Of a stretch of DNA of 37,593 nucleotides, positions 123 to 36,898 are shown piece after piece (position 1 is the first letter of the stretch; every line of letters begins with the position of its first letter). A model generated the notes under the pieces. That model did not search any database and was not told the origin of the DNA. It was given only the letters and a program-made list of their open reading frames with translations. Origin of the DNA: Planctomycetota bacterium (GTDB lineage Bacteria > Planctomycetota > Planctomycetia > Pirellulales > PLA5); NCBI GenBank assembly GCA_003576845.1, contig QEVJ01000051.1:1-37593 (forward strand), given 5' to 3'. The position numbers and the translations under genes were made by a program.

Positions 123-1331
123 CTACAGCTTCTTCAGCAGTGCCTCGGCCCGCTTAGCGAGCTCCGTGCCCGGCACGAGCTTGACGACCTGTTCGGCCTT
201 CTTCTTGGCTTCGGCCTTGTTAATGCCGGCCAGAACTTCGGCCGATTCGAGGAGCCCCTTGGCCGTCCGCTCGGCGACTGCCTTGTCGAGCTTCGCGCCG
301 CCCTTGGGCGTCGTCGGCTTCGTCGTGCCGGCGGTCTTCGCGTCGCCCGACGAACCCGTGCTCTTCGAGTCGCCCGAGTCCACGATTACGATCGTGTCCG
401 AGCCAAGCTCCTTGAGCTTCGCCTGCGCGTAGGTCGCCGCCGGCGTATTGGGCCACTTGCGAACGGCCAATTCATACTTGGCGATCGCGTCCTTTTTGTT
501 CTTGGTCGCGACGCGCATCGCCGCCTGATCGAGCAGGCGCGCTTGCTCGAACACCTCGCGGTGGTCCTTGTGGTTCTGAACCGTCCGCAGCTTCTTGAGG
601 TCGTCGGCCAGCGCCTTCATCTTTGCGTAGTCGCGGCTCATTTCCAAAATCGCCACGGCCGCTTCGAGCGAACCATCCGTCGAGGCGAGCTTTTCCTCGG
701 CCTCTTTGAACTTCGCCTTCGCGTCGTCGATCAGCTTCTTGCCGAATTCCTCGGCCTTTTGCACGTCCTCGCCGGCCCCGCCGGTGCCGAGCACGGGCGA
801 AATGGTCGAAACGGCCGTCGACACGTCGCCGGCATCGAGCGCCTTCTGCGCCGCTTCGACCGCGGCACGGATTTGCGCGAGCGCCTTTTCGCCGAGCAGC
901 TTGCCCGACTTCGTCAGATATTCCGTCAGGTCGTCGAGGCCGACGCCGCCGCTCTTGTTGTGCAATTCGCGCCCGTCGGAACTGACGATCGTGACCTGCG
1001 GGATGCCGGAACCCTTGGAGGGATACTTCTCTTCCCAAGCGCGGCGACTGTCTTGCTCTTTATTCAGGTCGATGTGGAGGTACACGTACCGTGCAACCAC
1101 GCTCTGCCAACTCGGATCTTTTTCGATCTTGTTGCGCAGAGCGACGCACGGGCCTCACGTCTCGCTGCCGAGCACGGCCAAGATCGGCTTGCCCGACTTC
1201 AGCGATTCCTTGAATGCGTCGGCCGGGGTCTTGGCCGATTCCGCGGCGGCGGCATACTGAGTCCACGCGAGTCCGGCCATAACGGCCAAACCGACGCGCA
1301 GTCCAAGGCCGCCCGATGCCAGAGATCTCAT
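123..1331 (-). CDS. Exported thioredoxin-like protein, probable selenoprotein (in-frame TGA = Sec59)
   Basis: Read from ATG 1329-1331 the frame encodes 402 residues if TGA 1155-1157 is decoded. A strong ribosome site (AAAGGAG) lies 9 nt upstream of this ATG. Residues 1-30 form a signal peptide ending in AAAA, so the protein is exported. A thioredoxin-like domain follows: a strand (PILAVLGSET), then U59-G-P-C62 where thioredoxins have CGPC, then a helix, and the cis-proline motif GIPQ with Pro111. The remainder is helical and Ala/Lys/Glu-rich, possibly TPR-like, with a Gly/Ser/Thr/Lys linker near residues 310-345. The frame is open on both sides of the TGA, and only the joined reading yields a complete signal peptide plus thioredoxin fold. 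Automated annotation would probably start at a codon near 1100 and lose the export signal and active site. Selenocysteine is inferred; a true nonsense mutation or a base error (TGC to TGA) is the alternative. Confidence 0.8.
1100..1143 (-). promoter_or_regulatory. Candidate bacterial SECIS hairpin
   Basis: Eleven nucleotides after the in-frame TGA the minus strand can fold into a 44-nt hairpin. The stem is CGCTCTGC (1143-1136) with GCAGAGCG (1107-1100), then CAAC (1134-1131) with GTTG (1111-1108), then GATC (1128-1125) with GATC (1118-1115). That is 16 Watson-Crick pairs with small bulges. The apical loop is GAAAAA (1124-1119), so it starts with G 31 nt after the TGA. Bacterial SECIS elements lie within the coding sequence just after UGA and usually have a G at the start of the apical loop, and I recall an 11-nt gap in E. 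coli fdhF. The fold was found by eye; no energy was computed. Confidence 0.7.
1155..1157 (-). other. In-frame TGA at the first Cys position of a CGPC motif
   Basis: The codons around it read GAG ACG TGA GGC CCG TGC, i.e. Glu-Thr-stop-Gly-Pro-Cys. In thioredoxin-fold proteins the stop position is the nucleophilic cysteine, the place where selenocysteine most often replaces cysteine. Confidence 0.8.
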
Positions 1332-4903: not shown

Positions 4904-5947
4904 ATGTCAGAACCGCTTCGCATTGCCGTCATCGGGGCCGGCAAGATCGCCGAAGGTTCGCATGTTCCCGCGGTGCTCGCTTCGCCCGATGTCCGGCTCG
5001 CGGCATTAGTCGACCCGGAAATCGAGCGCTGCCGCCGGATTGCGGCGCGGCACGGGATTGACCCGAAAATCGCGGCTGACGTCCGCGAGGTCCTCGGCCA
5101 CATCGATGCGGCCATCATCGCCACGCCCAACCACACGCACCATGCCGTCGCGCTTGCGTGCATCGAAGCCGGCGTGCATTGCCTCATCGAAAAACCGCTC
5201 GCCGCGACCGTCGCCGGAGGCGAAGCGATCGCCGCGGCCGCCGAACGGCAGCGCGTCGTGGCCGCCGTCGGCTATTCGTCGCGGTTCATCGACGCCGTCG
5301 AGTTGCTCGGGGACCTGATCGCCAAGGATTATTTCGGCACGATTCATCGGTTTGCATACCAGTTCGGCACGCGCGGCGGCTGGAATCCCGCGTCGAGCTA
5401 CATCCTCGACCGCAAGTCGATCGGCGGCGGCGTGACGGTCGTCGTCGGCACGCACTTCATCGACTGGATGCTCGCCTGGTTCGGATTTCCCGACGAAGTT
5501 GCCTTCGCCGACGACTCGCTCGGCGGCCCGGAGGCCAATGCCCATGCGACGTTGCGCTTCGCGCGCCGCGATGCTCCGCTCGTCGGTACGATGCGGCTCT
5601 CGAAAACCGTCCCCTTGCCGCCGGGCTTCGTCATGGAGACGGACCGCGGCATCGTCAGCTTCGAGGACAAGTCGATCGCGGCCGACGTCGTGCTGCGGCC
5701 CAGCGACGCACGGGATTGCGAGATGATTCTGCGAAAGTCGCCCGCGCCGGTTGCGGCATCGCGGCCCACGGGAAACTTCGCTCGCCAACTCGTCGATTTC
5801 GTCGCCGCCTGTCGCACCGGTTCGCCGCCGCGCGTTTCGGCTCGCCAAGGCGTCGAATCGTTGCGGCTGATCGACGCGCTGTATTCCGTCCGCACGCCGC
5901 TGCCGGAATTCGCCCCGCTACCTCGGCTTGAAGAGGCGAGTGCATGA
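4904..5947 (+). CDS. Gfo/Idh/MocA family NAD(P)-dependent oxidoreductase
   Basis: 347 residues from ATG 4904; a TTG 18 nt upstream is less likely. The N-terminal Rossmann fold starts with IAVIGAGKIAEGSH (residues 7-20). The family signature EKPLA is at 96-100, with the catalytic-type Lys97. The C-terminal alpha/beta domain contains GGGVTVVVGTHFIDWML, where the conserved Asp and His/Lys positions of the family fall. Members oxidise or reduce sugars and cyclitols, often nucleotide sugars in polysaccharide clusters. The stop codon overlaps the next start by 4 nt (ATGA), so the two genes are translationally coupled. The exact substrate is unknown. Confidence 0.85.
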   Translation: MSEPLRIAVIGAGKIAEGSHVPAVLASPDVRLAALVDPEIERCRRIAARHGIDPKIAADVREVLGHIDAAIIATPNHTHHAVALACIEAGVHCLIEKPLAATVAGGEAIAAAAERQRVVAAVGYSSRFIDAVELLGDLIAKDYFGTIHRFAYQFGTRGGWNPASSYILDRKSIGGGVTVVVGTHFIDWMLAWFGFPDEVAFADDSLGGPEANAHATLRFARRDAPLVGTMRLSKTVPLPPGFVMETDRGIVSFEDKSIAADVVLRPSDARDCEMILRKSPAPVAASRPTGNFARQLVDFVAACRTGSPPRVSARQGVESLRLIDALYSVRTPLPEFAPLPRLEEASA

Positions 5948-7128
5948 CTCGGCGAGTCGCGGTTTTCGGCGCTTCAGGCCACGTCGGCGGCACGCTCGTC
6001 GAGCGGTTACTCGCCCGTGGAACGTACGACGTGCGGCCCGTGATTCATACGGCCGGCAACGCCTGGCGGCTCGCGCGGCGCGGAATTCGTCTCTGGCAGG
6101 CCGACCTCGCTCGCCGCGAAGAGATTCGCGAGGTCGTCGCGGGTTGCGACGTGGTCGTCAATTGCACGTACCCGCCCGGCGAGCAAATGGAGCCGACGGC
6201 CAAGAACCTCACCGCCGAGTGTCTCGCGGCCGGCGTCAAGCGATTCGTCCATCTGAGCAGCATCGCGGTCTACGGCGAGTTCCCGTCGCGTGCCGCGGAA
6301 TACGAAACGGCAACCGAGCGCGCGCCCAAGCGAACCTACGGCTACTATAAGCTCCGCCAGGACGAAATCGTCGAACGCGCGGCCAAGAGCGGGCTGCCGA
6401 GCGTCGTCCTCTGCCCGCCGAACATCACGGGTCTCAATTCGCGGTATCTATTCGAAATCCTCGAAGCCCTGCGCCGCGGCATGTTGCCCCTCGTCGGCGA
6501 CGGAAGCGCGCCTTGCGTGCTCGTCGATGTCGTCAATCTCGCCGCCGCCATCGAACTCGCTTTCGACCACGGCGCCGCCGACGGACGGCGAGTGTTCATC
6601 AACGACGACGAGCCGACGACGTGGCGCGACGTGGTCGACTCGCTCTGGCCAATCGTCGGCGACGCGCCGCCGGTTGGCTCGATCGGCGTCGACGAAGCAC
6701 GGCGATTTGTCGCGAACCAGCGCGATGGGTTTACGCTGGCCCAAGCCGCCCGCCGGATCGCCGGCCTGGGCGAACTCAAACGGGTCGTCAAACAAACGCC
6801 GACGTTGCTCCGTTGGGCACGACGCTGCAAGAACTGGTCGAAGTACGGCCCGCGACGCCTGCGTCAGGTATTCGAAGGCGTGCCGCGCATCGCCCCGGCG
6901 TCGGCCGCTTCGCCCGACTGGAGCCGACTCGTCGCCCACCAACTCCGCGGCGTCCGCCACCGCTGCGATCGTGCTCGGCAAGAACTCGGCTATCGTCCCG
7001 AATTGACGTTCGCTCAAAGCACGGCCGAGTTCCGCCGCTGGTACGAAGCGTATTGCGGCTTCGGCGCCGACGAATGGCCGCTGCTCTGGCAGTTGCACCA
7101 TCGCCTTTCAGCAACGCGCGGCGGTTGA
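5944..7128 (+). CDS. NAD-dependent epimerase/dehydratase family protein
   Basis: 394 residues. An extended SDR fold is clear: the nucleotide loop GASGHVG (9-15), the serine region HLSSIAVYG (103-111) and the YxxxK catalytic pair in YGYYK (Tyr132, Lys136). These enzymes act on sugar nucleotides. The C-terminal third (about 270-394) is Arg-rich and longer than in standard UDP-glucose epimerases, with several Trp/Arg/Tyr motifs of unknown role. It overlaps the upstream oxidoreductase gene by 4 nt, so the pair likely acts in the same pathway. The gene ends 40 nt from the convergent gene at 7169. Confidence 0.85.
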   Translation: MTRRVAVFGASGHVGGTLVERLLARGTYDVRPVIHTAGNAWRLARRGIRLWQADLARREEIREVVAGCDVVVNCTYPPGEQMEPTAKNLTAECLAAGVKRFVHLSSIAVYGEFPSRAAEYETATERAPKRTYGYYKLRQDEIVERAAKSGLPSVVLCPPNITGLNSRYLFEILEALRRGMLPLVGDGSAPCVLVDVVNLAAAIELAFDHGAADGRRVFINDDEPTTWRDVVDSLWPIVGDAPPVGSIGVDEARRFVANQRDGFTLAQAARRIAGLGELKRVVKQTPTLLRWARRCKNWSKYGPRRLRQVFEGVPRIAPASAASPDWSRLVAHQLRGVRHRCDRARQELGYRPELTFAQSTAEFRRWYEAYCGFGADEWPLLWQLHHRLSATRGG

Positions 7129-13379: not shown

Positions 13380-13556
13380 CTCGAAGATGGGTACGTTTCC
13401 AGCGGTTGCCGAGAAGCGGCGTTTGCGTTGACTGCGGACGGCGCTAACGTAGCCTTATAGTGATCTCACGTCCGATTCGTGCGGCGCTCGCCTGTCTTCC
13501 TTCGCGCCGCAACCGACCCAACACGTCCAACGCCTATCTTACGTGGAGCCGCTGCC

Positions 13557-14624
13557 GTGAGGCTACTGTGGGCGATTTTCGCTGCGCTGGCGCTTGTCGC
13601 GCTTCCGCTCGTGGCCGCGCCGGGTGCGGACGGCCGCGAACGCGCAGAGTCCACGCCGCCCGCACGCGACGACCTCGAACGCGCGGCCCGCGATTATCGC
13701 ATCGCCGTCTATAACACATTTCGCCAGAACCGTCCGGAATTCGAACGCCGCGACGCTGCATGGCGCAAGCTGCTTGCCGATTGGAAGGCAAACGGCGCGA
13801 AAGCCGAACACCTGCCGCAACTGAGCGCTTGGCTGGACACTGCTACCGCCGCAAGCCGCGCTGGCCACGTGATGCCGTTGCCGCCGCGACCGCAATTCGC
13901 GACGGTCGCCGAACTCCCCGACCGGCCGCCGCCGGCTGAAACGAATCTTCGCCATCGCGAGGCAGAACCGGCCATGCCCGTGCCCCCGCCGCTAGCGAGG
14001 CGAACGACCGAAGCCGCGCCGCCATCGCGCTCCGCCGCCGCCGCCGGACTACCGCAAGTGCCCCTGACTATTAGTCCCGGCGTCGCACGGTCGACGCGGC
14101 CGCAAGCGTCGCAAGCCGATCGAGTCGCGGCGCTTGCCGATGCGCCGCCGCGTCGCCCCGCGCCGCCCGTTGGCATCGAGCCTCCGACGGAGACAATTCC
14201 GCCGCAACCCGGCGTTGCCCAACCCGTACGACCGGAAGCCACCGACGGCATCGACGTCGAGGAAGTCGCCGTTCGCGTCGCGGGCCACAACCTCGCCGTG
14301 GCAACGCTCGCGGAAGAAGTTCGCAAGCTCGAAAGTCCGGCGGCGGAGCAGCTTGTGGCCTATGTGGAACGCTTAGAAGCCCACGCGATCCGCGCCGGCG
14401 ACTTGTCGCCCTATTACGCGCTCGTCGGCGAATCCGACCGAGTCCGCCTGCGCCCGCTAGTTTCCATCGACGAACCGCGGCGCCTGCTCGCCGAGCGCAT
14501 CGACCACGCCATCGCCACAACCTCCGAGGACCCAGCGCTTCCGGCAGTGACGCGCTCCGAGCAACTTGCTCGGCTCAACGAACTTCACCGCCGTCTTTCT
14601 CAGCTCTCGTCACGTACTCCCTGA
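13557..14624 (+). CDS. Exported Pro/Ala-rich protein of unknown function upstream of flagellin
   Basis: 355 residues from GTG 13557. This start gives a signal peptide (LLWAIFAALALVALPLVAAP) and has GGAG 10 nt upstream; an ATG at 13479 would place extra charged residues before it. Three parts are visible: a helical region at about 35-105 (DLERAARDYRIAVYNTFRQN), a Pro/Arg/Ala-rich linker at about 110-230, and a helical C-terminus at about 240-355 (EEVRKLESPAAEQLVAYVER). No known domain was recognised. The gene ends 30 nt before the flagellin gene and probably shares its transcript, so a flagellum-linked envelope role is possible but not shown. A TATAGT box at 13456-13461 might be part of its promoter. 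Confidence 0.6.
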   Translation: MRLLWAIFAALALVALPLVAAPGADGRERAESTPPARDDLERAARDYRIAVYNTFRQNRPEFERRDAAWRKLLADWKANGAKAEHLPQLSAWLDTATAASRAGHVMPLPPRPQFATVAELPDRPPPAETNLRHREAEPAMPVPPPLARRTTEAAPPSRSAAAAGLPQVPLTISPGVARSTRPQASQADRVAALADAPPRRPAPPVGIEPPTETIPPQPGVAQPVRPEATDGIDVEEVAVRVAGHNLAVATLAEEVRKLESPAAEQLVAYVERLEAHAIRAGDLSPYYALVGESDRVRLRPLVSIDEPRRLLAERIDHAIATTSEDPALPAVTRSEQLARLNELHRRLSQLSSRTP

Positions 14625-27535: not shown

Positions 27536-27644
27536 GGGTCGGGGATCGAGGATTGAAGATCGAGGGTAGGGCGCGACGCGTGAGTTCAATCTTTCCCTCC
27601 AGCCTCCAACCTCACCCCTCGATCCTCGTTCCTCGCCCCTACAA
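27536..27644. repeat. Opposing heptanucleotide arrays between trmB and flgL
   Basis: 27536-27570 holds five units (GGGTCGG, GGATCGA, GGATTGA, AGATCGA, GGGTAGG). 27596-27644 holds seven units of the opposite type (CCTCCAG, CCTCCAA, CCTCACC, CCTCGAT, CCTCGTT, CCTCGCC, CCTACAA). The second array includes the flgL stop codon. The arms can pair over GATCGAGG-type stretches and may end both transcripts. Confidence 0.75.
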
Positions 27645-30600
27645 GTAATCGAGCAACGTCAGCCGCACGGTCTGCGCCGTCATTTGCAGCGACGCCTGGT
27701 AGGCGGCCTGCTTTGCCACGAGGTTCGAGATCGCCTCGGTCAGGTCGACCTCAATTTCGTTCGACAGCACCGACTTGAGATCGATCACTTCCGTGTCGAG
27801 ACGCTGATTGAGCACGTCGAGGCCTTGCTGCCGCGCGCCGACTTCCGCCCGCGATAGGGTCACGTTGTCGGCCGATGCGTCGAGTTGCGCCAGCAGCCGC
27901 TCGACTTCGAGGATGTCGTTCTGGTTGAGCGCATCGGCCAGGCGGATAAGCACGTTGAACACGCCCTCGACTTCCACCGGATTGCGGTCGCCCGTGGCGA
28001 TCGTGGCCGATTGCCCGCCGTCGGTGACGCCGACGTCGCCCGTCGCCGTGACCGTGTCGCCCGGCGCCGTCGTTGCGCCGCTGGCCAGCGCTGCCGCAAA
28101 CGTGCCTTCTGTATTGATCGCGCTCAGCACATTGGCGACCGTCGCGCCCGGTGCGACTTGTACGGTAAGCAGCTTGCTCGCGCCGTCGAAGGTCGCTCCC
28201 GTCGTCGCGCCCGAAACCAACCGGATCGTCACGTCGTCGGCTAGCGTGCCCGCCGCCGCGGCCGTAAGCTGCACGTCCGGTTGCCCGGTCACCAGAGCGA
28301 TCGTCGCCGTCGCGGGCGAAGGCGTCGCTGCCGGCGAACTTATCGACTCGCCTTGGGCGATCAATCCCAAATCCCACGCGATGTTCGACAGATTGAGCCG
28401 TTCGACTTGCAGCGTGGCCGTCGTCGAGACGATTTCCTCGACGAGTTCGATGCCGTTGCCAAACTCGGCCAGCCGCGCCGTAACTTTTCCCGCGCCCGTG
28501 TTGCCCGCGTGGTTGTTGATGGCGTCGAGGACTTCGCCGACGCTGCGCGCGGCGGAGAGATCGACCTCGAAGCTCGCGCCGTCGCTGCGGCGAATGCGGA
28601 TATCGGCCCCGACGAACTCGGTCGGCGCGCTGCGATGAACGCCTCGCCCGTGGTTCAGGTCGTCGAGCCGCGTGTCGGACGTATACGAGCGGATGCCGAG
28701 TTCCGTCGCGGTCGTGCCGCCGTTTTCGCCGACGCCGAAATCTCCGCCGCTGATTCGCGAGCGGACGTCGATGCCGGTCCGCGCCGCGTTAAGCGTCGCC
28801 ACGACGCCGGCCGACGAACCGTTGAGCAGGTTCAGCAGATCCTCGATCGTTTCGGCGCTGGACACGTCGATTGTGTGCGTCGTGCCGCCGTTGGTAATTT
28901 GCAGGCCCGAGTCCTGGTCGAACTCGATCCCCGCGCCGCCCGCGGTGATGGCGCTCGCCGAAGTCGAGACGGCGCCCGTCCCTTGTTCGGCCAGAACCCG
29001 CGTGTCTTTGGGGTCGATCGAGGCAGTGACGAGCGCACTCGCCGTGGAATCGCCGTTGATTGCATCGATCACCTGGTTCGCGGTCGTCTCCCCGCTCTGC
29101 ACGTAAACGAACAGTGTATTCGCCTCGCCACCGCTCTGTCCCGTGTTGCCTGCCAGCGGATTGACGTCGCCCGCCACAAAGACGTAACTACCGTCGTTCG
29201 TGGCGTCGAGCGACGAATCGAGCGCGGCGGTGAATGCACCGCCGGTTCCTGCGTCGGCGTTGATCGCATTGACGATGTCGCTCGCCGTCGAGACGCCGTC
29301 CTCGACCGAGATCGTGTACGTCTTCGTCGTGGCGTTAAAGTTGATCTGTACGCCGCCCGCGTCGGCCGAACGGACGGCGAGCGCAATCGTCGTGTTGTTC
29401 TGTCCCACGCCGGCAGTCGTCGCGGTCAGCAAGATGTCGTTGTTCGGCGTGGAATTGAACTCGACCGAAGCCTGTGCCGCAACGGCGTTGGCGCTGTAGA
29501 CGACGGTTTCGTTGCCGGCCAGCAGTCCCGGACCGGCGTGGACGAGGTTGTCGTCGACAAATTGAACCGCGAGGCCGTTCTGCGCGGCGCCGCGAAGCTT
29601 GGCCTCGATCAAGATGTCGTTATTCTGACCCGCTGAAGCAACGGTGGCCGAGGCGCGAACGCCGAGCAAGTCGGCGAGCCGCGTGGTGAGCGTCATCCGC
29701 GGGTCGAGATCGCCGCCGGCGATCGGGCCTGTGCCCACGTTTGTGTCGTTGAAGATTCCCAAATCGCGGGCGGTGAACCCGTTGCCGACTTCGCGGATTC
29801 GCAAGTCGCCTCCGCCGGCCGAATCGAGCGAAATCTGCAATCCGGTCGCCGTGACATCGACGCGGACCGTGCGGCTCGAAGGCGGATCCGCGTCGTAGCC
29901 CGGCGGCGCCGCTTCGATCGCCGCCACGATGTCGCCGACATTCGCCGCGCGGCTCAAATCGACGATGCTCGTGTACGTGCCGTCGGAAACGGCGATGCTG
30001 CCGAGCCGCACTCCCTCGCCACCGTTCAAGTCCGAAAGCCGCGTTGCCGCGGTTACGATCGGGTTCAGATCGGCCGTCCCGCGGACTTCCGCCGAAAGCG
30101 CGCCGAACACTTGTGAGCCGTTGACGTTCGACTCGAGCAGCAAGTCGATGTCCGCGTAGCTCGAAAGCGTGCCCTCGTTTCCGTTGTAGCGGACGAACTT
30201 GTTGTCTTCGAGCGAGAACGGCGTTTGCGTCAGATTGGTGCCCGCGAATAGATAGCGGCCGCGAAACTTCTGATTGCCTACGTCGACGAGTTGCTGCAAC
30301 GCGCGTTGGACCTCGATTGCCGCGGCGGCGCGTTGCGAGTCGTTCGACTGGATGCCGATCGAGCCGAGGGCCGTGCCGCGAATGTTGGCCAGCAGATTGG
30401 CGACGTTGCCCAGCGCGACGTCGGTCGCGCCCAAATAGGTGTTGTTGGTCTGCAGGTTGCTGCGGACTTGGTCTTTGCGCTCGATGAGCCGCTGCAACTC
30501 GATCGCCCGGCCGGCGGCGGGCGCGTCTTCGCTGGGAAGCGAAATCCGCTGGCCCGTGCTGATCTGCGATTGCAACCGGAACAGTTCCTGCTGGTCGAGC

Positions 30601-30674
30601 TGCGCCTGCGCGAGCAGACGCTGCCGCGTCAGCAGGTCGCTTACCCGCGTCGTCGGTACGGGACTGATGGCCAT
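27639..30674 (-). CDS. flgL: Flagellar hook-associated protein 3 (FlgL), greatly enlarged
   Basis: 1011 residues, about three times the length of E. coli FlgL. The N-terminal core (1-165; QISTGQRISLPSEDAPAAGR, then KFRGRYLFAGTNLTQTPF) and the C-terminal core (about 905-1011; ISNLVAKQAAYQASLQMTAQ) are typical and form the hook-filament junction. Some 700 residues are inserted between them. They include two flagellin-IN-like units (starting LSDLNGGEGVRLGSIAV and LDDLNHGRGVHR) and several Ala/Thr/Asn/Gly-rich beta repeats (NNDILLTATTAGVGQNNTTI; VQLTAAAAGTLADDVTIRLV). The insert would project from the junction surface. The ATG shares one base with the flgK stop (TAATG), so the two are translationally coupled. 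Confidence 0.88.
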   Translation of the reverse strand: MAISPVPTTRVSDLLTRQRLLAQAQLDQQELFRLQSQISTGQRISLPSEDAPAAGRAIELQRLIERKDQVRSNLQTNNTYLGATDVALGNVANLLANIRGTALGSIGIQSNDSQRAAAAIEVQRALQQLVDVGNQKFRGRYLFAGTNLTQTPFSLEDNKFVRYNGNEGTLSSYADIDLLLESNVNGSQVFGALSAEVRGTADLNPIVTAATRLSDLNGGEGVRLGSIAVSDGTYTSIVDLSRAANVGDIVAAIEAAPPGYDADPPSSRTVRVDVTATGLQISLDSAGGGDLRIREVGNGFTARDLGIFNDTNVGTGPIAGGDLDPRMTLTTRLADLLGVRASATVASAGQNNDILIEAKLRGAAQNGLAVQFVDDNLVHAGPGLLAGNETVVYSANAVAAQASVEFNSTPNNDILLTATTAGVGQNNTTIALAVRSADAGGVQINFNATTKTYTISVEDGVSTASDIVNAINADAGTGGAFTAALDSSLDATNDGSYVFVAGDVNPLAGNTGQSGGEANTLFVYVQSGETTANQVIDAINGDSTASALVTASIDPKDTRVLAEQGTGAVSTSASAITAGGAGIEFDQDSGLQITNGGTTHTIDVSSAETIEDLLNLLNGSSAGVVATLNAARTGIDVRSRISGGDFGVGENGGTTATELGIRSYTSDTRLDDLNHGRGVHRSAPTEFVGADIRIRRSDGASFEVDLSAARSVGEVLDAINNHAGNTGAGKVTARLAEFGNGIELVEEIVSTTATLQVERLNLSNIAWDLGLIAQGESISSPAATPSPATATIALVTGQPDVQLTAAAAGTLADDVTIRLVSGATTGATFDGASKLLTVQVAPGATVANVLSAINTEGTFAAALASGATTAPGDTVTATGDVGVTDGGQSATIATGDRNPVEVEGVFNVLIRLADALNQNDILEVERLLAQLDASADNVTLSRAEVGARQQGLDVLNQRLDTEVIDLKSVLSNEIEVDLTEAISNLVAKQAAYQASLQMTAQTVRLTLLDYL

Positions 30675-32371
30675 TACAAGTTCACCAAAACGTCGAGCAG
30701 GTCGGCAACGGCGCGAATGTACTTCGCCGCCGCCTGGTAAGCACGTTGATAGGTAATCAGCTTGATCGCTTCCTCGTCGATGCTCACGCCGCTGACGCCG
30801 AGGTGCTGTCCGCGCAAGGTTTCCTCGAACACCCGCGAGCCTTCGGCCACGCCGCGGGCGACGGCCGCCGCCTGCGTCGTTTTGCTCGTCAAGCTGTCGT
30901 AGAGCGTGCTCAATGTCTCTCCGCCGGCCGATTCGAGCGGCCGATCGAGAAACCCGGCCAGTTGGATTGCCATTCCGGTGCCGCCGCCGATACCTTCGTC
31001 GCTGGCGGCAAATAGGGCAGGATTGGCGGCAATCGCGGAATTGACGCCGACGTTGATCGCCGAAGTGCCGGAGAAAAACGTGTTGATGCCGAGCGCCGCG
31101 AGAACGCCCGACGTGTCGTCGGCGAACGCGAACTCGACGTCGACCGATTCGCTTTCGATGTGCAGCCGGCCGGTCGCGGTTACGTCGGCGGAAAGCCCGT
31201 CGGCCGCGTCGATCTGCGCGGCGAGACTTTCGAGCGAGGTGTCCAGATCGAAGCCGTTGAGATCGACCGTGATGTCGTAGTTCTTCGTCAGCCCGGTCTG
31301 GCGATTGTAGGTCTGGACCTTGAAGCTGCCGTTGACCGGCGTGAATGCGAGACCCGCCGCGTCGAGCGGCTTCTGCACGCCGTCGACGGCAAACTCGCTG
31401 GTGACTTCGTCGTAGCCCCGCAGCCCCTGACCCGACGAGAACAGCTTGTTGAACTCGAAGACCAACGTCGACGTGAACGCATTGAGGTCGTCGAGATAAT
31501 CGCCGGTAATCAGATCGCGCGCGTCCGTGAGTCCCGCCACCTTGCCGCTCGAAATCTCCAAGCGAGAGTTGGTATCGACGAGGTCGATCGTCGTGGTGAG
31601 CAGGCCGTCGATGGACTCGTCGCGCGTCTTGACCTCGCGGCGCTGGCCTTGAAACACGAGATAATCGCCCCCGACGAACACGGTGACGGTCCCGTCGCTT
31701 TGTTCCTCGGAGCGGAAATTGATGAGCTCGGCCAGACTCGCGAGGGCCACGTTGCGCTGATCGCGCAGGCCGACCGCGTCGCTGGCCGTCGCCTCGCCGC
31801 CTTCGGTCGACGCGATCTTGATGTTCAGCTTGGCGATCGTCTCGGTCAGCCGGTTGATGTCGTCGGCATGTTGGCCGATTTGCTTGTTCAAGTCGTTGCG
31901 AATCGCCAGCACGCGGTCGTTGAGCCGGTTCAATTGGCCGGTCAGTGTCTCGCCTTGCAACACGGCCAGGTTGCGAACGGAAACGCTATCGGGCTGGTTG
32001 AGCACCTCGTGGATCGACGAGATGAAGTTGTCGATTGCCGTGCTCAGATCGGTGTCGGAAAGCTCGCCGATCACCGATTCGAGCTGCAAGTAGGTCTGTT
32101 CGCGGATTTCGTTGCCTGCCCGATCGCTCGTGGCGCCGCGGAGCCGTTCCTCGACGAACTTGTCGATTTTCTGGATGATCGCCGTAACTTGAACGCCCAG
32201 GCCGAGCAGCAATCCGCCGAGCCGTTGCGTCGGCGCCGGCGTGAAGACGACTTCCTCGCGGATGTAGCCGGGCGTGTTGGCGTTGGCGATATTCTGCCCG
32301 GTGACTTGCAGGCCGATTTGTTGGGCCTGCAAGGCGTTGTTGCCCAGTTGTAGCGCGGAGAACAGCGACAT
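30674..32371 (-). CDS. flgK: Flagellar hook-associated protein 1 (FlgK)
   Basis: 565 residues, normal for FlgK. The N-terminus has the rod/hook family signature (SALQLGNNALQAQQIGLQVT, then GQNIANANTPGYIRE). A long coiled-coil region follows (RNDLNKQIGQHADDINRLTE). The C-terminus ends in the conserved helix (SIDEEAIKLITYQRAYQAAA-KYI). FlgK is exported by the flagellar apparatus and joins hook and filament together with FlgL. flgN lies 63 nt upstream and encodes the likely chaperone; flgL follows with a 1-nt overlap. Confidence 0.93.
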   Translation of the reverse strand: MSLFSALQLGNNALQAQQIGLQVTGQNIANANTPGYIREEVVFTPAPTQRLGGLLLGLGVQVTAIIQKIDKFVEERLRGATSDRAGNEIREQTYLQLESVIGELSDTDLSTAIDNFISSIHEVLNQPDSVSVRNLAVLQGETLTGQLNRLNDRVLAIRNDLNKQIGQHADDINRLTETIAKLNIKIASTEGGEATASDAVGLRDQRNVALASLAELINFRSEEQSDGTVTVFVGGDYLVFQGQRREVKTRDESIDGLLTTTIDLVDTNSRLEISSGKVAGLTDARDLITGDYLDDLNAFTSTLVFEFNKLFSSGQGLRGYDEVTSEFAVDGVQKPLDAAGLAFTPVNGSFKVQTYNRQTGLTKNYDITVDLNGFDLDTSLESLAAQIDAADGLSADVTATGRLHIESESVDVEFAFADDTSGVLAALGINTFFSGTSAINVGVNSAIAANPALFAASDEGIGGGTGMAIQLAGFLDRPLESAGGETLSTLYDSLTSKTTQAAAVARGVAEGSRVFEETLRGQHLGVSGVSIDEEAIKLITYQRAYQAAAKYIRAVADLLDVLVNL

Positions 32372-32434
32372 GGACGCACCGACGGCACGAGAAGGCGGTG
32401 CGTTTCGCCGCGTTGGGAAGCGGCGCGGCGGCGG

Positions 32435-32932
32435 TTAGCCGGCCTGATCGATCAGGTTGCCGGTCGCCAGCGAGGACGCACCTTCTCCATAAGTCGGCTG
32501 TAGGCGTCCGCCAGTCGCGATAATCTCTATCATCTGCGAAAGATGGACGAGCGCCTGCTGTGCTAGCACCCAGTTGGCGATGCTCTGATGGCGGAGAAGC
32601 TGCATCCGATTTGCGGCCGTCTTCACTTGTTCGCCCAAATCGCCCCGTTGTTCCGTTTGCAGCGACGCCGCCAGCGACCGGATGCTATCGCTTGCGAATC
32701 CATTGTCGCCGGCCTTCTCCAGCAGTTCCGACCGCTTCCGGTGACACTGTTCGAGCCGTTCGAGCACCCGCTGCTCGCGGTGTTGCACGTCGTCGAGTCC
32801 TTCGGTCGTGCCCTTGGCGATGCGGTTCCGCCGCTCGTTCAGCACGGCGAACAACTCGTCCTGCGTCGCCGAAAGCTCGCTGAGCATTTCCGCGATTTCG
32901 CTGTCCCAGGCGATCGGAGAGGCGGTTTCCAT
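32435..32932 (-). CDS. flgN: FlgN-like flagellar export chaperone
   Basis: 165 residues from ATG 32932; the frame is open to 32995, and the start is uncertain because no ribosome site is clear. The protein is helical throughout, with heptad-rich segments (AEMLSELSATQDELFAVLNE-RRN; HREQRVLERLEQCHRKRSEL) and late helices (ANRMQLLRHQSIANWVLAQQ). The YGEG ending resembles the YN/YG-type tail found in FlgN. Family members bind FlgK and FlgL before export, which fits its place directly before flgK. Sequence identity in this family is low, so the call relies partly on context. Confidence 0.75.
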   Translation of the reverse strand: METASPIAWDSEIAEMLSELSATQDELFAVLNERRNRIAKGTTEGLDDVQHREQRVLERLEQCHRKRSELLEKAGDNGFASDSIRSLAASLQTEQRGDLGEQVKTAANRMQLLRHQSIANWVLAQQALVHLSQMIEIIATGGRLQPTYGEGASSLATGNLIDQAG

Positions 32933-33010
32933 CACTCGTTCATTCCGTAGGACAAGAAACGCAGGATCACCGCGAGTAGACACATTCACATACATGTCGC
33001 TGGCTTGCTC

Positions 33011-33134
33011 AACGCCGAGGACGCAGACGACGCGGAGGGAACGCAGAGAATTCAGCTAACGAGGCAACGTGGCAAGAAGGACTCTTCCTCGTTCTTCTCT
33101 GCGCCACCTCTGTGTCCTCCGCGTCCTCTGCGTT
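33011..33134. repeat. 40-nt imperfect inverted repeat inside the flagellar cluster
   Basis: The arms 33011-33050 and 33095-33134 are reverse complements at 32 of 40 positions, separated by 44 nt. Each arm is itself built of short related units (ACGCAGA, ACGCGGAGG and the like). It lies between flgJ and flgN and could form a long mRNA hairpin that separates the expression of the two sides. Confidence 0.75.
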
Positions 33135-33173
33135 TAACGAACCAACTTCGCGCTCGGACAAGGCTCCGCGCTC

Positions 33174-33512
33174 TTATTGCCGCGGCAGGTTGTCGAGTCC
33201 CGCCTTGAACTGCTCGAACATCGCGCCGGTGAACGTGTGGGCGTTGTTCTTGGACATATTCTCGGCGAGCATCTGATCGAGCTGCGTCTGAAACACTTCC
33301 TCGGCGCGGCCGCCGTGGAAGTACGCCGGTTTATCGACCGTGCTCCTCAGGGCCTTGAGCATTTGCCCGTAAAATGTTTGGCCGACGAATGCGTCGAACG
33401 CTTCGCGCGTCTTCTTGTCTTTGGCGAGCTTGGCGCCGTTCGCAGCGCTCGAAACATCGGCGGCGCTCGCCGCCTGTTGCGCCTGCGTGAAACCGAGCGA
33501 GTTGACATTCAT
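33174..33512 (-). CDS. flgJ: FlgJ-like rod-binding protein (single domain)
   Basis: 112 residues from ATG 33512, with GGAG 7 nt upstream; ATG 33530 is an alternative. Only the N-terminal rod-binding domain of FlgJ is present: TREAFDAFVGQTFYGQMLKA-LRST, FHGGRAEEVFQTQLDQMLAE and GAMFEQFK. The peptidoglycan-hydrolase domain of the enterobacterial protein is absent, as in many other phyla, so rod passage through the cell wall must use a separate enzyme. It lies between flgI and flgN on the same strand. Confidence 0.83.
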   Translation of the reverse strand: MNVNSLGFTQAQQAASAADVSSAANGAKLAKDKKTREAFDAFVGQTFYGQMLKALRSTVDKPAYFHGGRAEEVFQTQLDQMLAENMSKNNAHTFTGAMFEQFKAGLDNLPRQ

Positions 33513-33534
33513 CGCCGTGCTCCGCTTCATCTGC

Positions 33535-33605
33535 TGTGAGAGGCGAATCCTTTCGCCGACGGAATGGCCTGCCGACGCAATCGGCGAAAGGATTCGCCTC
33601 CCACA
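33535..33605. repeat. 71-nt paired inverted-repeat element, copy 2
   Basis: Arms 33535-33558 and 33582-33605 (24 nt each, one mismatch) flank a 23-nt loop. The arms match copy 1 at 11-81 almost exactly. It fills the gap between flgI and flgJ within the operon. Confidence 0.85.
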
Positions 33606-33617
33606 GCTTCGGTTTTG

Positions 33618-34724
33618 TTACTCGATAATCAGCCGCGCGTGCAGTTTGCCGTTGCGGTCGAGGCCTTTGATGATTTCGATCGTATCTTCCTCCGATGCCC
33701 GCACGGCATTGAGCGCGTCGAGCAGGCCTTGCAGCCGCGACGTGCCCGGTTGCTGCTGCAGGTTCCGGCGTTCCGGGTCGATCGCGACGAACCCGCCGCC
33801 CGTCGTGCCCGTTTCGATGACGATGTTCTTGAGCCTCACGACGGCCGCGCCGATCTCGACATCGCCGCCGACTACGATGGTCTTCGTCCGCTCGTTGATG
33901 ACGACTCGGGCTTCCGTCTCCGGCTCCGGAATCGACTGGCTCAGCACTTGCGATACGAAGAATACCGGATCGGCCTTTTGATTCTCCGACTGCGGATTGA
34001 GATACACCTGCGGAATCGGCACTTCGATTTGCGTGTGGTCGACCGCTCGCGCGCTTAGGCTGTGGACGTTGAGCAGTTGCGTGTTGAGCAGTTCGGCGAT
34101 GTCGGACGCGACCTGATAATCGGCTCGGTCGCGGTCGAGAATCAGCACCAGCTTGCCGCCGGAAAAGTCCGGGCTGGGAAAGCTCTCTTCGAGCCGGGCG
34201 CCGCCGTGAACCTTCGCCGCGACCGGCATCCGCGCCGCGTCGTCGAGTTCGAGCTGACCCTGGGCCAGGGCGAACACGCGGCGGCTCTTCACGTCCGGTC
34301 CCAACAGCGGCGTCATGAACAAGCGGCCGCCGACGAGACTCTTCGCGGACAGCGCGCTCACGTGGCAGTCGAGCGTGTCCCCTCGCTGTGCGCCGGCCGG
34401 AATCGTCGCCGTCACCATGACGAGCGCGATGTTTTTGGCGTCCTTGAGCTCACGCAACCCGCCCTGCCCCTTAGCGTTCGCCGGACTCAGCGGCATTCCC
34501 ATCAGTTCCATCGTCCGAGCCATCGCCCGAATCGTCGGCAGCGAATCCGCCCCATCACCGGTGCCCTTAAGCCCGACGACGAGTCCCAGCCCTTGCAGCG
34601 TCACCTCTTCCATCCCCTTCACGCGGCAAATGCTCTTCAAAAGAATCCGCGCGTCAGCAGCAGGAGCGAACGCCAACAAGGCAACCAGTGCGGCAACGAT
34701 TCGCAAGCAAGAAAATCGTGTCAT
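33618..34724 (-). CDS. flgI: Flagellar P-ring protein FlgI
   Basis: 368 residues from ATG 34724, with GAAGGA about 8 nt upstream. A signal peptide (ALVALLAFAPAADA) precedes the mature protein. The family signature is clear: RILLKSICRVKGMEEVTLQG, LGLVVGLKGTGDGADSLPTI, KNIALVMVTATIPAGAQRGD and the C-terminal VNERTKTIVVGGDVEIGAAV-like strand (here VINERTKTIVVGGDVEIGAA). FlgI forms the ring around the rod in the peptidoglycan layer, assembled with FlgA as chaperone. Its presence with FlgH shows a rod that crosses both a wall layer and an outer membrane. Confidence 0.93.
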   Translation of the reverse strand: MTRFSCLRIVAALVALLAFAPAADARILLKSICRVKGMEEVTLQGLGLVVGLKGTGDGADSLPTIRAMARTMELMGMPLSPANAKGQGGLRELKDAKNIALVMVTATIPAGAQRGDTLDCHVSALSAKSLVGGRLFMTPLLGPDVKSRRVFALAQGQLELDDAARMPVAAKVHGGARLEESFPSPDFSGGKLVLILDRDRADYQVASDIAELLNTQLLNVHSLSARAVDHTQIEVPIPQVYLNPQSENQKADPVFFVSQVLSQSIPEPETEARVVINERTKTIVVGGDVEIGAAVVRLKNIVIETGTTGGGFVAIDPERRNLQQQPGTSRLQGLLDALNAVRASEEDTIEIIKGLDRNGKLHARLIIE

Positions 34725-34736
34725 GACAACATCCTT

Positions 34737-34812
34737 CTGTCCACTATCCACTGTCCACTGTCCACCGCCCGCTTCCCCAGCCCCCAGCCCCCAGCCCCAG
34801 CCCCAGCCCCCG
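34737..34812. repeat. Heptanucleotide and CCCCAG-type repeats between flgH and flgI
   Basis: 34737-34764 holds four 7-nt units (CTGTCCA, CTATCCA, CTGTCCA, CTGTCCA). 34772-34812 continues with repeats of 6-7 nt (CCCCAG, CCCCCAG). Together they fill the gap between the flgH stop and the flgI ribosome site. Confidence 0.75.
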
Positions 34813-35637
34813 CTAAAACGGATTGATCGTATCGATCACCTTCGTCATCCACCCGCGGCGATAGCCATCGCGAACGTGCCCGCGCGACTTGCGATAGATC
34901 TTCGGCTCGGCGATGTCTTCGCTGAGCACCGTGTTGTCCGCATTCACGTCGTCGGGCCGGATAATGCCGGTAATCGACGTATCGAACACTTCATTATCCT
35001 GCTGAAACGTCCCGTGAGCTTCCAGCACGAGGTTGCCGTTCGGGCGAATGTCGACGACCGTCGCCGCAACGCGAAACTCGATCCGATTGCGCAATTCCAA
35101 CTCGCTGTCGGTGCGATAGGTCTGTTGGATCGTGCCGCTGGCCTTTGGATCGCCGTCGGCTTGCTCGGCCGGCTTGAGCGTGAGTCCGCTCGCGAGCTTG
35201 ACCCAATCCTTGAGCACCGCGTCGTACAATCCGTTCTTGCGGCGGTCGACCGAGCCTTCGCTCAAGTAGGCGGAGTTTTCCTTGACGACCACCGTAATGA
35301 TGTCGTGCACCTTGAGCTTTCGCGGCAGAATCGGCTCCTGGTAGTACGGCGAAATGTTGTCCAGCGTCAAATACGGCGCCGACGGCGGAACCACAGCGCC
35401 TTGAACCGCCATCGGCTGCGGGGCGTAACCTGGCGATCGGGCGCCCTGAGTTCGCGCGTCTTGAGGTCGGGCATCTTGCGCCCGGGCAATTCGCGGCGGA
35501 ACCGGCGACGTCGCCTGCAACGCCGCCCGCGAAACGGGTTGCTGCGCAAGCGACGCCGTCGCCGCAGCGCCGGTAACGGCCACGCCGATCGTCCAGCGGA
35601 CGGTGGAGGAAATCGAGTGGAGGCGTTTGGCGGTCAT
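34813..35637 (-). CDS. flgH: Flagellar L-ring protein FlgH (no lipobox)
   Basis: 274 residues from ATG 35637, with CAGGA about 9 nt upstream. A signal peptide (WTIGVAVTGAAATASLAQQ) is followed by a Pro/Arg/Gln/Ala-rich linker at about 40-90, with the repeats QDARPQDARTQGARSPG. The FlgH core then begins (KLKVHDIITVVVKENSAYLS) and continues through ELELRNRIEFRVAATVVDIR, PNGNLVLEAHGTFQQDNEVF and ITGIIRPDDVNADNTVLSED to the C-terminal INPF. Standard FlgH is a lipoprotein with Cys after the signal peptide; this protein contains no cysteine at all. Either the ring is held in the outer membrane without a lipid anchor or another protein supplies it. Confidence 0.9.
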   Translation of the reverse strand: MTAKRLHSISSTVRWTIGVAVTGAAATASLAQQPVSRAALQATSPVPPRIARAQDARPQDARTQGARSPGYAPQPMAVQGAVVPPSAPYLTLDNISPYYQEPILPRKLKVHDIITVVVKENSAYLSEGSVDRRKNGLYDAVLKDWVKLASGLTLKPAEQADGDPKASGTIQQTYRTDSELELRNRIEFRVAATVVDIRPNGNLVLEAHGTFQQDNEVFDTSITGIIRPDDVNADNTVLSEDIAEPKIYRKSRGHVRDGYRRGWMTKVIDTINPF

Positions 35638-35700
35638 CGCGGTTTCCTGTGGGCTCGGCTTGAAATACATCGTTCGCTTATTGAGCGGTTGGCTGTCCCG

Positions 35701-36765
35701 TTACTCGGCGGCGAATGTGCCGCGCGTCGATGAGGCATCGCTCGCTTGCGCGGCGCTGGCGAACACCTCGACGACTTGCACGTCGGCCACGCGGGCGAAA
35801 TACCGCTTGCGGTCGGCGAGCGATTCGATCTCCACGAGCTCGCCCCGGCCGCCGTCCTGCCGCGTGCGTCCCGTCGTCTTGACGCGAACGCCGGCCGAAT
35901 AGGCATACACGGTCACGACGTCGCCGCGTTTTACCAGCAGCGGAGGCCGGACGTAGTTGGCGTCGAGCACCTGGCCCGCCGCGATGGAACGCACCGCTTC
36001 CTGGCCGATAAGTTCTTGCGGTGAGTGGAAAGCACCTTTCTGAGCCACGCCGCGCTTGGCCGGCGCGAGCGCCAGGTCGCTCGCGCGAATCACGTCTCCC
36101 TTGACCAGCGGCCGAACTGCGACGACGACCATGTCGGGCCCTTCAAGCGTCGCTTCGACGGCGAATTGCGCTTCCTTCGCGCCCAGGACAATGTTGAACG
36201 ACTGTGGTCCTTGCCAAGGTTCGGCGCCGCCTTCGACCGCGATTCGTCCGAACGCGCCCTGCACGGACCGCACCTGGTCTTCGTTCAGTTCCACGTTCAC
36301 GCGCCAGTCGCGGTCGGCATCGACGTTGCGCGCGAGGTATTTTGCGATGGCAGCTTCCACGGCCGCATTCGCCCCGCGAGCGGCGCTGCCGTTCGAGCGG
36401 AATTTGCGTTGCGTCGCCGAATTGATCGCTGCCGAGCCGAGCCGCACTTCGCTCGCCCCGCCGAAACGATGCTCGCCGGTCGCGATTCCGCGGAGAGCAA
36501 GCAGGTCCTGCACTTCGCGAAGCTTCAACGTTCGCTCGCCCGGCACGGCCGGCGTGGGCAACAACTCGACGCTTGCCAGCACCGCCCGTTCCGTTTCGTT
36601 GGCAGCCTGGATGTCGGCCACATCGCCCAGCGTAATCACGCGCCCGCCGACCGCGGCATCGGCGCGAAGCTGAATCTCCGCCCCCCGCACCGGCGCCGTC
36701 CACGACGACAGCACGATCGCGATGGCCAAGAACCAGTAGCCAAGGTTCGTTCGTAGTTCGGACAT
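35701..36765 (-). CDS. flgA: Flagellar P-ring assembly chaperone FlgA
   Basis: 354 residues from ATG 36765; the frame is open to 36876, but the upstream part crosses a repeat array. A signal peptide is present (LGYWFLAIAIVLSSWTAPVR-GA). The N-terminal half is longer than in E. coli FlgA. The C-terminal SAF/ChapFlgA part is clear: VRPLVKGDVIRASDLALAPA, LIGQEAVRSIAAGQVLDANY, VRPPLLVKRGDVVTVYAYSA and VKTTGRTRQDGGRGELVEIE. FlgA works in the periplasm to help FlgI assemble, and the gene is followed by flgH and flgI. No Shine-Dalgarno is seen. Confidence 0.9.
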   Translation of the reverse strand: MSELRTNLGYWFLAIAIVLSSWTAPVRGAEIQLRADAAVGGRVITLGDVADIQAANETERAVLASVELLPTPAVPGERTLKLREVQDLLALRGIATGEHRFGGASEVRLGSAAINSATQRKFRSNGSAARGANAAVEAAIAKYLARNVDADRDWRVNVELNEDQVRSVQGAFGRIAVEGGAEPWQGPQSFNIVLGAKEAQFAVEATLEGPDMVVVAVRPLVKGDVIRASDLALAPAKRGVAQKGAFHSPQELIGQEAVRSIAAGQVLDANYVRPPLLVKRGDVVTVYAYSAGVRVKTTGRTRQDGGRGELVEIESLADRKRYFARVADVQVVEVFASAAQASDASSTRGTFAAE

Positions 36766-36792
36766 GGCGTTAGATATGGTCGGTTTTGGGGA

Positions 36793-36898
36793 GAATGCAG
36801 AATTCGAAACGCAAAAAGCAGAATGTAAAACGAAGAATGATGGGTCTTGCGAATGATGGCGTGTTTCATTTTTCATTCTTCATTTTGCATTCTGCATT
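36793..36898. repeat. Opposing heptanucleotide arrays between flgG and flgA
   Basis: 36793-36841 holds seven 7-nt units (GAATGCA, GAATTCG, AAACGCA, AAAAGCA, GAATGTA, AAACGAA, GAATGAT). 36864-36898 holds five units of opposite type (TTTCATT, TTTCATT, CTTCATT, TTGCATT, CTGCATT). Only 22 nt separate them, so a long imperfect hairpin can form between two genes of one operon. Confidence 0.8.

Follow-up and report, generated by a model that had tools for sequence, protein, structure and literature searches.

A putatively exported selenoprotein with a Thioredoxin_7 domain and a predicted TPR-like tail in planctomycetes

A gene interrupted by a single in-frame TGA

The window analyzed here is a 37,593-nucleotide stretch of a Planctomycetota bacterium (contig QEVJ01000051.1 of assembly GCA_003576845.1; order Pirellulales), and the gene under study occupies positions 123-1331 of its minus strand, reading from 1331 to 123, a strand assignment absent from an earlier sequence-only reading of this DNA. 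The frame opens with an ATG (1331-1329) that is preceded at a distance of 9 nt by a Shine-Dalgarno-like AAAGGAG (1347-1341), and it runs for 402 codons to a TAG at 125-123. Its sole internal stop is a TGA at 1157-1155, located at the catalytic position, where a randomly placed stop would fall with a chance of 1 in about 400. When this TGA is read as selenocysteine (Sec), the product has 402 residues and the active-site context becomes S-E-T-U59-G-P-C62, with the codon of the resolving Cys62 at 1148-1146. The sequence-only reading had described both the upstream ribosome site and a TGA at the first cysteine position of a CGPC motif, and both descriptions hold at this locus. A gene finder that halts at the TGA would split the gene and lose the active site of the family. 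Scanning the window for Rfam families and tRNA genes returned no matches. Elsewhere in the window, N-termini encoded on the minus strand at 27639-36876 suggest what we take to be a flagellar cluster (FlgL/FlgK/FlgI-like).

Predicted architecture of the product

By inspection, residues 1 to about 30 (MRSLASGGLGLRVGLAVMAGLAWTQYAAAA; 1242-1331, minus strand) form a signal peptide, with a basic start, a hydrophobic core, and an AAA end, and a hydrophobic N-terminus is also present in the full-length homologues that were read, in agreement with the signal peptide proposed earlier for the upstream part. Residues 33-145 (897-1235, minus strand) form a thioredoxin fold according to both the structure model and the Pfam family Thioredoxin_7 (PF13899), which scores 30.4 bits against a curated cut-off of 27 and is matched by all 31 family members described below at an E value of ≤0.001. 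The pLDDT of the predicted model is 87.6 overall and about 94 in the thioredoxin (Trx) domain, for which the closest PDB structures are ERp18, a DsbD-like C-domain, and a Xylella disulfide isomerase (1sen, Z 12.7, rmsd 2.3 over 110 aligned residues; 3f9u, Z 12.6; 3fk8, Z 12.6). Cys62 (1146-1148, minus strand) is at least 90% conserved in the family, and the cis-proline position P111 of the motif GIP111Q (999-1001, minus strand) is invariant.

The remaining residues, 146-402 (126-896, minus strand), are predicted to form a TPR-like helical tail, with paired helices at 148-308 and 345-401 and a disordered linker at about 320-345. The similarity of this tail to TPR proteins of the BamD/YbgF/CnoX type is weak: TPR profile hits are weak and occur in some members only, a Pfam search of the window protein gave no TPR hit, a search with the tail alone retrieved BamD, P58(IPK), and YbgF at E values above 0.02, and a comparison of the tail model with the PDB yielded no match below an E value of 0.02. 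Of the features assigned earlier to the part downstream of the TGA, Cys62 and GIPQ were borne out, while the helical extension spans about 257 residues rather than the 290 first proposed. As a separate observation, 10 of the 31 members (L032, L033, L035, L037, L039, L043, L044, L047, L048, and L053) match SHD1 (PF03983), and these 10 have in common a C-terminal R-x-W...L-S-x-x-D segment, picked by eye from the alignment. Export and fold, together with the SECIS element described below, are supported by computation, and the product is very probably an exported Sec oxidoreductase with a Thioredoxin_7 fold.

Selenocysteine and cysteine members of the family

Since a single base change would restore Cys and draft assemblies contain errors, the TGA might represent a miscalled or mutated TGC or TGT, with the two halves of the gene being remnants of a broken one. 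However, the orthologue in a congener, 76% identical, retains the TGA, and the two genes differ with a dN/dS of about 0.17 over the portion 3' of the TGA and of about 0.07 over the Trx part, which shows purifying selection on the downstream half. The host genome also encodes a second paralogue (G000:C283:36926-37822; L005:1421-2347, minus strand), in which a signal peptide is followed by a Trx domain carrying the TGA in its UGPC motif and then by a helical tail; the congener orthologue of this paralogue (L027) has the same architecture and TGA. The TGA is shared by two paralogue pairs and by dozens of other genomes, and its recurrence in independent genomes makes a read error untenable. Together with a SECIS-like hairpin that is present in the Sec members and absent in the Cys members, these observations leave a broken gene or sequencing error vanishingly improbable.

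An order-wide search of 397 genomes returned 31 strong matches (E values up to 8.4e-11), 23 of which contain exactly one TGA and 8 none. All aligned TGA members have U at the start of a UxxC motif (UGPC, UPPC, UGAC, UPAC, UQPC, or UPSC), and the non-TGA members have Cys at the Sec position within CxxC, except for two with CxxA. Relatives thus carry Sec or Cys at position 59, the site at which the sequence-only reading had looked to homologues for a redox residue. The two CxxA members (L045 and L049, from genomes G025 and G199) have CEEA/CREA and have lost the second, resolving Cys; no convincing tRNA-Sec or SelA was found in these two genomes. Many Trx-only proteins were also recovered in the same search; they had almost no TGA and were set aside as ordinary Thioredoxin_7 relatives.

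In a second, named collection, a TGA was found in 28 of 29 related loci, all from planctomycete metagenome-assembled genomes (Rhodopirellula, Rubripirellula, Mariniblastus, Pirellulaceae, and others). Of the two patterns used to scan this collection, one did not overlap the motif, and the second specified Cys codons there and was thus unable to favor TGA; the 31-member profile offered no stretch conserved enough for such a scan, and a tighter member set succeeded. In a sample of 392 genomes from across the phylum, only nine matches passed an E value of 1e-15, comprising the host genome itself, three Cys members from the class to which it belongs, and five Sec or Cys relatives that are more distant and lie elsewhere in the phylum. 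Two distant Sec relatives from elsewhere in the phylum (L089 and L090, from genomes G401 and G419) have a DWUGYCK motif and possibly represent another group of exported Trx-like selenoproteins.

A tree of 53 rows, in which Sec was coded as Cys so that the Sec/Cys label did not inform the topology, calls for 8 changes between Sec and Cys, at least 5 of them on well-supported branches, with several long branches being unsure. The presence of Sec and Cys members within one family provides a natural series for what selenium buys.

A SECIS-like hairpin downstream of the TGA

A SECIS-like hairpin lies at 1100-1143 on the minus strand, and its predicted apical loop, GAAAAA, occupies nt 31-36 downstream of the TGA. 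Folding was assessed over 48 nt starting 9 nt past the TGA, with synonymous codon shuffles made for each sequence separately. The minimum free energy for the window gene is -23.5 kcal/mol compared with -8.9 kcal/mol for its shuffles (z -6.16), and the mean z is -2.62 among Sec members (n = 24) versus +0.11 among Cys members (n = 8), with a Mann-Whitney p of 3.8e-7 that overstates independence because the sequences are related. For segments elsewhere in these genes, the mean z is -0.17. Each of the 30 distinct sequences has its predicted apical loop 28-39 nt past the TGA. When the 30 hairpins were passed to RNAalifold as a gapless alignment, no shared structure emerged, as the register differs from one sequence to the next; for this reason, we used the per-sequence shuffle tests and do not claim covariation. 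Taken at the level of sequence, these comparisons indicate that the hairpin is under synonymous selection and is present as a SECIS-like element in the Sec members.

Selenocysteine machinery and the meaning of UGA

UGA read-through occurs in bacteria, and the codon could accordingly be decoded as an amino acid other than Sec, either by a near-cognate tRNA or through a reassigned code. Reassignment is not simply the case in this genome, as TGA terminates other frames of the window (5944-7128 and 13479-14624). Moreover, the host genome (7.05 Mb, 99% complete) has the full Sec machinery: the sequence-only reading had tied its proposal to selA, selB, selC, and selD, and all four were found (SelA, 513 bits; SelB, 365 bits against a cut-off of 242; tRNA-Sec, 69.9 bits with anticodon TCA; SelD, 362 bits). 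The host SelD (L023; G000:C145:10145-11071) has its own in-frame TGA, in SCAGUAGK, and is thus a Sec-containing SelD.

Across the order, tRNA-Sec was found in 22 of the 23 genomes with a TGA member versus 2 of the 8 Cys-only genomes (Fisher p 2.5e-4, only indicative because the genomes are related), with true tRNA-Sec scores of at least 63 bits being cleanly apart from a background of other tRNAs at ≤53 bits. SelA at ≥500 bits shows a similar split (20/23 versus 2/8). The single TGA genome that lacks tRNA-Sec is G288 (91% complete), in which no convincing tRNA-Sec or SelA was found. Two further observations concern individual genomes: in G363, tRNA-Sec (C82:122785-122881) lies about 0.7 kb from a family member (123557-124468), and G279, a genome without a convincing tRNA-Sec, has a SelA match of 354 bits (G279:C99:14908-16257), possibly a SelA-like paralogue or the result of an assembly gap.

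The complete machinery, the distribution of tRNA-Sec, the use of TGA as a stop in the same window, and the fact that the replacing residue in homologues is Cys all argue against non-Sec decoding, which we regard as very improbable. From the sequence comparisons, it is near certain that the window gene encodes a selenoprotein in which UGA codon 59 specifies Sec.

Relation to known proteins

No NCBIfam family matches the window protein, the best results being weak hits to other Trx-like proteins. A 2026 table of prokaryotic selenoproteins (PMC13188914) includes Sec thioredoxins and a Trx7/PDZ protein (CxxU), but it contains neither a Trx-TPR UxxC family nor any planctomycete. Within NCBIfam and this table, the earlier suggestion of an undescribed selenoprotein type therefore holds up. 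Planctomycete Sec machinery and some selenoproteins were already known (PMC4807772), and the selenoprotein candidates of two planctomycetes in the supplement of that paper may include family members under a generic name. Two marine surveys (PMC1088965 and PMC2398784) describe generic "thioredoxin" and Trx-like Sec families, which might include fragments of the present family; the main texts of both make no mention of planctomycetes. Given that Sec thioredoxins are known and that neither NCBIfam nor PMC13188914 holds a matching family, the protein is apparently, within NCBIfam and the cited literature, of a known kind, the Sec thioredoxin-fold proteins, but represents a new family with a new architecture.

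Sec thioredoxins and Trx-like selenoproteins (PF00085 and PF13098; PMC13188914) resemble the present family in their Trx fold, the Sec of a UxxC motif, and a downstream bacterial SECIS, whereas the present family has a Thioredoxin_7 domain, is predicted to be exported, has a TPR-like tail, and was found here mostly in one planctomycete order. The Trx7/PDZ (seleno)protein NF041199 is likewise a Trx7-fold selenoprotein and weakly matches 7 of the 31 members (best E value 1e-4), but it combines CxxU with a PDZ domain, in contrast to UxxC with a TPR-like domain, and neither NF041199 nor PDZ is among the profile matches of the window protein. The group of ERp18 (TXNDC12), AGR2, DsbH, and the DsbD C-domain provides the nearest Trx-domain folds (Z about 11-13) but lacks both Sec and a TPR-like tail.

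With the whole chain, the top Foldseek hits are Escherichia coli YbbN and its Salmonella homologue (PDB 3qou and 3qdn). YbbN is CnoX, in which a Trx domain is followed by a TPR domain (PMC6282202 and PMC8129009), and the model of the window protein has the same order of an N-terminal Trx fold and a C-terminal TPR-like part. However, CnoX is cytosolic, has SxxC or WCGPC, and lacks Sec, whereas the window protein has Sec and, by inspection, an N-terminal signal peptide; in addition, a Pfam search of the window protein gave no match to a CnoX-type TPR family, and superposing the two-domain structures gives a poor fit (TM about 0.22-0.30, rmsd ≥13). Because of this poor superposition and the weak tail matches, CnoX serves as a working model and not as the family to which the protein belongs.

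Proposed mechanism and possible roles

We propose that UGA codon 59 is recoded as Sec by SelB and Sec-tRNA, directed by the hairpin starting about 11 nt past the UGA, and that the product crosses the inner membrane, where a Sec-Gly-Pro-Cys Thioredoxin_7 domain would be followed by the TPR-like helical domain. The protein would most likely be a periplasmic thiol/selenol oxidoreductase, although its physiological role is inferred only. By the chemistry of Trx-fold enzymes, U59 would act as the nucleophile on client disulfides or sulfenic acids, and Cys62 would resolve the selenenylsulfide. The enzyme may be recycled through DsbD-type transmembrane electron flow, and the TPR-like part may hold or recruit clients as in the cytosolic CnoX chaperedoxins; we put client holding and DsbD-type recycling at an even chance or slightly less. 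A plausible electron source for the window protein is the one DsbD-type protein of the host genome, whose C-terminal domain has a W-C-L-T-C motif.

Alternatively, the protein could be an exported Sec thioredoxin serving one partner (e.g., a periplasmic peroxidase, Msr, or c-type cytochrome maturation), with the TPR-like part merely docking that partner and having no holdase function. This would fit with TPR domains chiefly mediating specific protein contacts, with the BamD/YbgF-like similarity of the tail, and with the suitability of Sec for fast peroxide or disulfide chemistry. However, no gene neighbors are conserved beyond close relatives, and thus no partner is suggested by a neighbor conserved across clades; the tail also diverges fast (dN versus the congener of 0.18, compared with 0.05 in the Trx part). 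We consider a dedicated partner a serious possibility that falls somewhat short of an even chance. A selenium-dependent exported chaperedoxin, which would hold unfolding envelope proteins and repair or shield their thiols with its selenol, is a tentative, rather doubtful idea. If true, it would extend a class of folding factors whose described members are cytosolic and use sulfur only.

The present analysis adds a well-supported selenoprotein family that is widespread in one planctomycete order. Within that order the family uses Sec broadly, and one planctomycete genome carries two Sec paralogues that are both predicted to be exported. Because a selenol active site is joined here to a TPR-like domain that may bind clients in the cell envelope, a selenium-dependent role in oxidative folding or repair becomes directly testable.
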